Assembly (NCBI RefSeq): GCF_000226255.1
Contig: NZ_AGFG01000043.1
Coordinates: forward strand, 1-51,586
From: Desulfovibrio sp. A2
Lineage (GTDB): Bacteria > Desulfobacterota > Desulfovibrionia > Desulfovibrionales > Desulfovibrionaceae
Length of the DNA: 51,586 nt
Reading direction: 5' to 3'
The notes under the pieces were generated by a model, which was not told where the DNA came from, did not search any database, and saw only the letters and a list, made by a program, of their open reading frames with translations. This document shows, piece after piece, positions 9,284 to 32,426 of the stretch; the stretch's first letter is position 1; each line of letters opens with the position of its first letter. Made by a program: the position numbers and the translations under genes.

Positions 9284-9770
9284 CTGCCGCGCCGCCCTCG
9301 TTCCCTTTTTCCCCGATGCGGTGTATGCGCTCGCGCAACGGCCAGGCTCTGGGCCGAACCGTGCTGCTCAAGCACAAACCGTAGCGCGATTCGTGCCCGC
9401 CGCCGGAGATCGCCGCCGCATGGCGGCGGAAGCTCCGGCGGAGCGGGTACGCCGCGAACAACGTGTGATACCGGCACCCCACGCCCCGCCATGGCGACGA
9501 GAGCAACGCGCGCCTTGCATTCCGCCGGTCAGATCACCCGAAGGCGCGCCGGCCGCAGGGAAGCTGACCGGCACAGGAATGTCGGCGCATGAGGCCGGGG
9601 GGATCGGGGGGCGCGCCCCCCGAAGCGCGGGGGTCGGTAGGGGGCCGCCGCTATGCGGCCCCCTACCCCACGCCGGAGGCGGCCCAAACCCCGCCAACAC
9701 TCGACCGTTTTTGTTTCCGATACTTCCGTTCGTGCGCAGTCCTTCCTCCACACAGCAACCAGCCCACCCC
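9284..9770. other. Intergenic gap with two family D modules (9401-9690)
   Basis: 487 bp. Frames running through it into the flippase gene look repeat-derived: the stretch 9400-9690 is collinear with 31550-31840. D1 has stem CGCCGGAG/CTCCGGCG (9401-9408, 9433-9440). D2 has GCCGGTCA/TGACCGGC (9524-9531, 9565-9572) with outer CATTCC/GGAATG. Both enclose the AGATCRCC...GGAAGCT motif. Confidence 0.75.
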
Positions 9771-30850: not shown

Positions 30851-31140
30851 GGGCGGCGCGGGCATACGCCGTAAAGACAAAGATCGTGGCGTGCCCTGAT
30901 GGGGGCGGCTTCTACGAAAACAGTCCAGCGTTATTGTTCTCCCTCGATTTCGGTATGTCTCCGGCGGGACTCAAAGGGGTTGAGCCCTAATGGGCCCGGC
31001 TTCTACGAAGGCACGCCAGTCCTGTTGACCGCGCCCGATTTCGTTATGCCTCCGGCGGACAGGGGGCCGCTAAGCGGCAGCCCCCTGTACCCCCGCGCTC
31101 CGGGGGCTCCGCCCCCTGGTCCCCCGAGTTCGTCCTGCAC

Positions 31141-31339
31141 CGCATTCCTTTCCTCGCCAGCTTCCCTGCGGCGCTGGGCGCCTCCGGGCGATCTGGCGAC
31201 GGGAATGCGATGTGCGCCTGTCTCTCGTTGCCTCGCCACAGGTCAGGCCCCCTATCCCCACCCATCCTGCGCCGCGTTCCTGCGTCGGACAGCTTCCCTC
31301 GGCCAAAGCGCCTTCGGGCGATCTGCCCGCCGGAACGCG
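31141..31339 (+). repeat. Family D modules D3 and D4
   Basis: D3: outer CGCATTCC/GGAATGCG (31141-31148, 31202-31209) and inner TCGCCA/TGGCGA. D4: outer CGCGTTCC/GGAACGCG (31273-31280, 31332-31339), inner stem imperfect. The outer stems differ by a compensated A-T to G-C change. Confidence 0.75.
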
Positions 31340-31549
31340 AATGCGCACCAGTCTCTCGCCGCCTTTATCCCACCAAGGTGCCTTTACCTTCGCCCTCGTT
31401 GCGACGCATATGCCGCCGCCAAAGGCCGGCGGCATACGCTTCTACGCACGTAACGTCTCCGTTGGGCAAAATAAGAGACACCACACGCCACGGCTACCTC
31501 TGCCAAGAACGCGTTACGCCCAACGCCCGCCATCCGCGCGGATTGCGCC

Positions 31550-31895
31550 CGCAGCCGGAGATCACCGCCGGAGGCATCGCGACGGCGGAAGCTCCGGCGT
31601 CCCGGGCGCACCGCATAAGAACCGTCGGTAAAGGCACACCCCGAACCTTCGCCATGCCACCGGGAGCATCGCGCACATCGCATTCCGCTGGGCAGATCAC
31701 CCGAAGGCGCTTTGGCCGAGGGAAGCTGCCCGGCATGGAATGCGGTGCAGGATACGCCGGGGGACCAGGGGGCAGAGCCCCCTGGAACGCGGGGGCGCAG
31801 GGGGTGTTCGTTACAACACCCCCTGCCCGTCGGAGACATAGCGAAATCGAGCGGAATCAACAGGGCACAACTGCCTTCGTAGAAGCCGTGCCCAA
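31550..31895 (-). repeat. Longest family D unit (modules D5 and D6)
   Basis: D5: GCCGGAG/CTCCGGC (31554-31560, 31592-31598). D6: outer CGCATTCC/GGAATGCG (31679-31686, 31737-31744). The unit continues through a CCAGGGGG/CCCCCTGG hairpin and ends with AACTGCCTTCGTAGAAG. It is collinear with 9400-9690. Confidence 0.75.
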
Positions 31896-31917
31896 CAACG
31901 CCCCCCCCCAAAAAAAC

Positions 31918-32345
31918 CTTCGCCATGGCGACGAGAGCCGCGTGCGCATTGGCGGCACCGGCGGCAGATTACCCGGAGGCGCACCGCGCCGCAGGGAAGC
32001 TGCCGCCGAAGGGACGCCGCGCAGGGCACCCCACGGTACGTGCACACCCCGAACCTTCGCCATGCCACCGGGAGCATTGCGCACATCGCATTCCGCCGGG
32101 CAGATCGCCCGAAGGCGCCTTGGCCAAGGGAAGCTGCCCGGCAGGGAATGCAGTGCAGGATAAGCCGGGGGTCCAGGGACTTCAGCCGTTAGGCGAGCGC
32201 GAAGCGCGAGTCTTACGGATGAAGATAGCAGCGCTGCGAAGCCCCCCTGGAACGCGGGGGTGCAGGGGGCCGTCGGAGACATAACGAAATCGAGCGGAAT
32301 CAACAGGGCACAACTGCCTTCGTAGAAGCTGCGCCCAACAGCGCA
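31918..32345 (-). repeat. Family D modules D7 and D8, with B4 nested in D8 unit
   Basis: D7: CGGCGGCA/TGCCGCCG (31959-31966, 32001-32008). D8: GCCGGGCA/TGCCCGGC (32095-32102, 32135-32142) with outer GCATTCC/GGAATGC. Where the D6 unit has a short loop (31768-31785), this copy carries B element B4 (32184-32222) between CCAGGG and CCCTGG. Confidence 0.75.
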
Positions 32346-32395: not shown

Positions 32396-32426
32396 TTGAC
32401 CTACGCACACGCAACCATGCTATGGT
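32396..32426 (+). promoter_or_regulatory. Possible sigma70 promoter
   Basis: TTGACC (32396-32401) and TATGGT (32421-32426) are separated by 19 bp, 77 bp upstream of ATG 32503. The spacing is long, so support is moderate. Confidence 0.4.

Follow-up and report, generated by a model that had tools for sequence, protein, structure and literature searches.

A mosaic intergenic repeat of Desulfovibrionaceae with a conserved internal loop on variable, complementary stems

Results

Architecture of the locus

The stretch of DNA analysed here (the window, 51,586 nucleotides) is a whole contig of the draft genome of Desulfovibrio sp. A2, which comprises 4.15 Mb in 83 contigs. At about 31 kb it holds a mosaic of repeated modules whose order, judged by eye, is roughly X'-Y'-Dn'-E' / centre / T2-Dn-Y-X. 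The D1, T2 and E modules were located by pattern on both strands, and the X and Y modules by eye and through short motifs; the scores given below are those of R1, a covariance model of the type 1 (D1) units.

Two X' elements form the outer left end (30900..31057, minus strand, boundaries by eye; GGCTTCTACGAA... CTCGATTTCG..TATG..TCCGGCGG), with CGTAGAAGC on the minus strand at 30908 and 30999. They are followed on the same strand by Y', a G/C-rich double hairpin assigned by eye (31060..31130), to which a module at loci L013, L015 and L021 is similar, by D1 units at 31117..31245 (core 31159-31194, inner stem CGTCGCC/GGCGAGG, 117.9 bits) and 31249..31376 (core 31291-31324, outer stem GCGTTCC/GGAACGC, 109 bits), and by a leader hairpin, E, with GTAG at its foot (31405..31445, a pattern match with 1 mismatch). 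The centre between the two halves (31446..31520, ends by eye) was delimited from an alignment of five orthologous loci. The right half lies on the plus strand and begins with a type 2 unit, T2 (31525..31622, core 31559-31593), defined by its core, its structure and an alignment (A2), with ends set by eye. A D1 unit (31643..31768, core 31694-31727, 119.9 bits) comes next, then a Y element (31752..31834, ends by eye; GCCCCCTGGAACGCGGGGG at 31777) and an X element (31835..31895, ends by eye; ACATAGCGAAATCGAGC ... CTTCGTAGAAGCC, with CATAGCGAAATCG at 31837 and CGTAGAAGC at 31878). Two further D1 units (31914..32042, core 31966-32001, 94.7 bits; and 32051..32176, core 32102-32135, 117.3 bits) precede a second Y element (32160..32270, ends by eye) and, at the outer right end, a second X element (32272..32335, ends by eye; ATAACGAAATCG at 32281 and CGTAGAAGC at 32321). 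Elsewhere in the window, also on the plus strand, a T2 unit (9360..9474, core 9407-9434), to which R1 gives a weak 35 bits, stands beside a D1 unit (9480..9608, core 9531-9565, 102.2 bits).

X elements (ACGAAATCG...CTTCGTAGAAGC) recur at 30900-31057, 31835-31895 and 32272-32335. The second Y contains an inserted module, CCGTTAGGCGAGCGCGAAGCGCGAGTCTTACGGATG..., with a similar insert in L015; this module interrupts Y at several loci and on either strand (window 32180-32240; L015 3497-3550; L278 of genome G066), and is probably another repeat. Past the array, window positions 32396-32426 hold a possible promoter of the downstream DUF6693 gene (TTGACC..TATGGT, 19-base spacer); a similar candidate is present in four relatives, and it is missing along with the array in G136.

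The earlier note had reported eight copies of the motif AGATCRCC...GGAAGCT in the window. All eight cores are present, as are the stems quoted for them and their positions: seven match strictly, the two in the left half on the minus strand and the others on the plus strand, and the eighth, at 31966-32001 (+), reads AGATTACC. Two sub-types can be told apart, type 1 (D1) and type 2 (T2, cores 9407 and 31559), and the true core length ranges from 26 to 37 nt. The strict pattern occurs 35 times in the genome, split 18 and 17 between the strands, and its reversed control does not occur at all; R1 found 35 places in the same genome: 33 full type 1 units, 1 unit cut by a contig end and 1 weak type 2 match. 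Descent of the copies from a decayed gene is unlikely, because core lengths of 26-37 nt put them out of frame with one another and the subfamilies have no common open frame (by eye); a coding origin was rejected on these grounds.

Fold and conserved residues

A type 1 unit is about 130 nt long. Its 5' end is a short variable stretch, often able to form a small hairpin (by eye), after which come GRGAG, a four-pair outer stem, the AT bulge, two more stems, an internal loop and a tip hairpin. By computation, one strand of each unit can fold into a long hairpin with two variable but complementary stems, an AU bulge, a conserved AUCR/AAG loop closed by the near-invariant pairs AG-CU and CC-GG, and a tip that varies. 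The motif had been described as apical; it is instead an internal loop (AG-AUCR-CC / GG-AAG-CU), capped by another hairpin (CCC..GGCGC / GCGCC..GGG). Folded as RNA, positions 31630-31760 reach -63.1 kcal/mol (z -3.65), a value matched or undercut by 1 of 200 shuffles. A copy at L044 from a second genus, g40, which we take to be Desulfovibrio, has a fold stability like that of its shuffles (z -0.26).

In 150 copies found with the model, A57-C61 (AGATC), C63-G66 (CCCG), G86-G94 (GGGAAGCTG) and the AT bulge are conserved at 96.7-100%, and GRGAG at 97-99% except for its R. The loop letters AUC and AAG stand at 96-100% and the swapping stem columns 50-53 and 97-100 at 49-56%, which supports the proposal that conserved unpaired letters are carried on variable, complementary stems. 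The contrast is not uniform, because several stem columns (35, 36, 38, 43, 44, 54 and 56, at 95-99%) are conserved as strongly as the loop, and some unpaired columns vary freely. Part of the loop's invariance also arises by construction: the motif was the means by which most copies were located, and it is also part of R1, so that ascertainment is reduced but still present in the model-found set.

Covariation of the stems

That the stems differ and yet remain complementary was borne out far above shuffles, both in alignment-free counts and in two alignments (A1 and A3). For the alignment-free count, 254 pattern matches were sorted by regular expressions into 103 type 1, 22 type 2 and 31 g40 copies; the rest, which includes chance matches, was not counted, and a copy needed at least 45 nt on each side to be included. 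In the type 1 set, which combines loci from several genomes of the host genus, 674 of 824 cells at positions 1-8 beside the core are Watson-Crick pairs, against a shuffled mean of 474 (sd 17, maximum 523). The type 2 set (110/132 cells; shuffled 106.8, maximum 110) and the g40 set (87/124 cells; shuffled 82.2, maximum 85) say less because they vary little. When the 49 distinct inner-arm pairs were counted once each, 302 of 343 cells were paired, G-U included (shuffled 212.6 ± 10.8, maximum 249): 21 of the arm pairs are fully paired, 20 are one pair short and 3 have 4 or fewer of 7.

Alignment A1 (39 copies, omitting one copy at a contig end) shows changes on both sides at 12 of 28 pairs, and A3 (150 of 159 matches), whose figures lean toward the structure because it was fitted to it, at 16 of 28; 0 of 500 shuffles reached the observed number in either case. 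When the partner is shifted by one column, pairing in A3 drops from 94.5% to about 33%.

Part of this covariation is due to shared descent. Mutual information is about as high for non-pairing columns as for pairing ones, so the stems are inherited as few haplotypes and independent compensatory events must be fewer than the cell counts suggest. Two such haplotypes, GCCGGGC/GCCCGGC and CGGCGGC/GCCGCCG, account for 26 and 10 of the 103 type 1 copies, and the outer arms belong to one class in 96 of the 103. Among the 7 discordant copies, two (L018 and L021) are clearly mixed-arm, while the others, including window 31291, differ by 1-2 letters or are misfiled. Because L018 and L021 combine outer arms of different classes, their sequences point to recombination inside the conserved core.

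G-U pairs outnumber A-C mismatches in the inner stem of type 1 (24 vs 9, positions 1-7) and of type 2 (3 vs 2, positions 1-6), as they do in A3 (100 vs 47; 60 vs 42 with the tip helix excluded); the cells are not independent. The excess is slight evidence of selection acting on the motif strand in single-stranded form, RNA and ssDNA alike.

Spread across relatives

As the earlier note expected, the clade holds many copies. Searches of 199 genomes of the family, including our own, returned 6-45 matches in each of the 8 genomes of the host genus, inferred to be Nitratidesulfovibrio, and 0-43 per genome in the g40 sample; no other genus of the family exceeds 5, and the listed cases resemble short coding matches (by eye). 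With a stricter pattern requiring GG and CC beside the core, which makes these letters invariant in g40 by construction, copies were found in 21 of 79 g40 genomes, with a maximum of 42. The covariance-model search of relatives that the note had recommended, run with R1 under stricter filters and with at most 23 candidates per genome, found units in at least 11 of 149 family genomes: 8 of the host genus, 2 of g40 and one weak case, a single match, in a third genus, g27 (G026, E 3.5e-5). A phylum-wide set of 395 genomes includes 378 from outside the family, none of which exceeds 3 matches. Single matches in many unrelated genomes look like chance, and a scan of a plasmid collection for the pattern gave no match. 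The pattern is present in five viral contigs.

The 34 g40 copies that were compared form subfamilies a-d (12, 11, 8 and 3 copies), with stems and tips largely unlike those of our genome. Short stretches are common to both, such as TACGCG and, in subfamily c, GCCGCC beside the core as in T2. The g40 tips read GCGNAGC, with all four letters seen at N; such tips are unusually stable in DNA. The copy at L044 1-85 lies about 1.4 kb past a 5S rRNA gene.

Placement, organisation and turnover

In the host genome, 17 clusters or single units were placed relative to genes called by codon-position bias. Seven lie between convergent and seven between codirectional genes, none between divergent ones, and three at contig ends were not callable, so that all 14 callable places are of the kinds typical of REPs. 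The mosaics follow the 3' end of at least one adjoining gene. The neighbour at L016 is a plus-strand amidohydrolase gene; 18 of 20 neighbour proteins in one set and 7 of 8 in another exceed the Pfam cut-off, and their functions are unrelated.

Several motifs alternate in orientation within one locus, as in BIMEs. Across 26 sources from our genome and G038, halves beginning with E and halves beginning with T2 were both found at five loci, always as opposite halves; L020 and L265 have a further E outward of T2. By strict scan many loci show one leader only, with no T2 at, for example, L010, L017, L267, L269 and L272, and degenerate leaders exist. E has nine matches in our genome at up to 3 mismatches, 6 of them with GTAG at the foot.

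Within the genus the arrays occupy old positions, whereas their number of copies and their stem haplotypes change. The 12 mosaics taken from the one-contig genome G038 account for 33 of the 36 strict units there. For 11 of them one or both flanks are orthologous to a place in our genome, and for 7 both are. All 8 genomes of the genus contain the left flank of the 31-kb locus. Five have an array between the same flanks, with 6, 4, 4, 2 and 3 pattern-found units, and three (G136, G085 and G100) have no array beside it. In G136 the same two genes are separated by 86 bp that retain an X remnant; G085 and G100 also keep an X remnant, with neither right flank nor unit in the 2.9 and 3.4 kb past the left flank. 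Arrays thus can be lost from old places, and at this locus the array is dispensable in the three genomes that lack it. X may be an independent repeat, since its remnants persist where the D array is missing.

Discussion

Fold potential, covariation, placement, the age of the places and turnover are observed properties of D, a repeat family that is real, of a known kind and with an unusual signature, and absent from print in the literature searched: among open-licence papers, those listed for Nitratidesulfovibrio and Desulfovibrio included, there was none on this repeat and none containing any of five core strings.

The nearest likenesses are to REPs and BIMEs. As reported in one study (PMC3733652), REPs are palindromic and intergenic, lie mostly between convergent or codirectional genes, form pairs in opposite orientation, and show complementary stem changes and G-T pairs in their stems. 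D shares the palindromy, the intergenic placement, the opposite-orientation pairs, the complementary changes and the G-T pairing, but its unit spans about 130 nt rather than a 20-40 bp palindrome, it has no conserved GTAG/CGTC foot, no RAYT was found, and its common signature is the conserved internal loop. The earlier note had set the family apart on the ground that usual REP elements conserve the stem. This distinction does not hold for E. coli TnpAREP, which is reported (PMC8266576) to need GTAG and an unpaired bulge; its upper stem and loop can be swapped, and some lower-stem positions matter. The substrates of TnpAREP (REPtron) and D are thus alike in that recognition depends, or would depend, partly on unpaired bases with an exchangeable upper stem and loop; they differ in that D has no adjoining GTAG and that TnpAREP was not found in the host genome. 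In pneumococcal BOX elements, boxA-(boxB)n-boxC (PMC3049150), the middle module varies in number, a fold upon transcription is predicted and turnover is slow. Compared by organisation from that paper alone, D loci share the modular order and the variable number of middle modules, but differ in having a centre flanked by two sets of modules in roughly inverted order, and stems that swap.

Fixed unpaired letters on arms that change in step suggest that something in the cell reads the folded strand. We favour, with a probability of roughly 0.6, the reading that D units make up the repeated module in a REP/BIME/BOX-like mosaic found between genes of Desulfovibrionaceae, in which the folded strand offers unpaired bases to a trans-acting factor. 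The D hairpin would form when the strand opens, during replication or read-through transcription. The factor would then contact the unpaired bases, with the stems serving mainly as scaffold, which would make them exchangeable provided that both arms change. Turnover would proceed through local duplication and through recombination between units inside the conserved core. A more specific form, which we advance only tentatively, is that D represents a previously undescribed class of folded-strand recognition site in two genera, whose factor reads the AGAUCR / GGAAGCU loop and a few further unpaired bases while the scaffold is replaced.

Could the units instead be transcribed, as a structured RNA family with divergent RNAs at each locus (E-D-Y-X and T2-D-Y-X) that act as small RNAs? 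The strand-polar conserved unpaired residues, the G-U excess, the stable fold of the window copy (z -3.65), the tandem organisation and the separation of the E and T2 leaders, on opposite halves at 5/5 loci with both as first element, would all be accommodated. We nevertheless consider this rather unlikely. Scored against the sigma-70 consensus only, the sequence upstream of 44 first units gives a mean best score of 4.81, against 4.85 for the antisense strand and 4.85 for shuffles. Rfam 15 has 0 matches in the window at the gathering score, and two permissive scans gave nothing above chance for D, the one significant match being 5S rRNA at the edge of L044. The g40 copy, moreover, folds no better than shuffles, and relatives lack the array at one locus. 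A reverse-transcriptase-linked RNA (retron or group II intron) was rejected since PF00078 has 0 matches in the host genome; readings as CsrA sites, kink-turns, SRP, loop E or integron attC seemed a poor fit and were dropped. Nor does a site recognised as double-stranded DNA or cruciform by a nucleoid- or chromosome-organising protein, for which palindromy matters and single-strand reading does not, explain the family well: the long inverted repeats past gene ends and the likeness of the half-sites AGATCRCC and AGCTTCC (by eye) fit it, but a symmetric site would be expected to show neither strand-polar invariants outside the core (GRGAG at the 5' side, A.GA at the 3' side, the AT bulge) nor an excess, albeit modest, of G-U over A-C. 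Its probability is low.

Mobilisation by a RAYT (TnpAREP) reading folded ssDNA, with the enzyme since lost from most genomes, would account for the inverted pairs, the REP/BIME-like mosaics and intergenic placement, and the GTAG at the E foot in 6/9 matches. It is the reading to which we give the least credence. Within 20 nt of the D1 foot on the expected side, GTAG occurs in 8/150 copies and CGTC in 36/150, with 11 and 34 on the other strand. No Y1_Tnp was found in the host genome or in 6/8 genomes of the genus; the other two have fragments (L282, L283), and the 1.7-3.3 kb examined there contain no D, X or E motif. Y1_Tnp is likewise absent from G189, G068, G040, G206 and G251 (6-42 copies each), among them the richest g40 genome (G189, 42 copies) and one assembled as one contig (G040), and in g40 its occurrence in 12/21 motif-bearing and 34/58 motif-free genomes shows no association. 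RAYT was accordingly rejected as a present-day partner, and D is not filed as a RAYT-mobilised REP, because the tag is lacking, the enzyme is absent from our own and several copy-rich genomes, and the g40 association is missing. Finally, D might be functionless: a few old stem haplotypes spread by recombination, with covariation due to descent only. The linkage of the haplotypes, the mixed-arm copies, the loss of the array at one locus and neighbours of no common function agree with this, yet neutral drift is an improbable source of a loop kept at 96-100% while the adjoining stem columns diverge, of its recurrence in g40 on largely different stems, and of 49 distinct arm pairs of which only 3 have 4 or fewer of 7 pairs.

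Repeat families are usually recognised by the identity of a stem or tag. A family like D is easily missed, because its main common signature is an internal loop on exchangeable stems. Since dnaB (L021) and rpoC (L017) are among the genes with a mosaic beyond their 3' end, any effect on transcript ends would touch important operons. The presence of one loop on many scaffolds in two genera can serve as a natural experiment in the search for its reader, and, if the folded-strand reading is true, lineages would be able to replace most of the stem scaffold without losing recognition.
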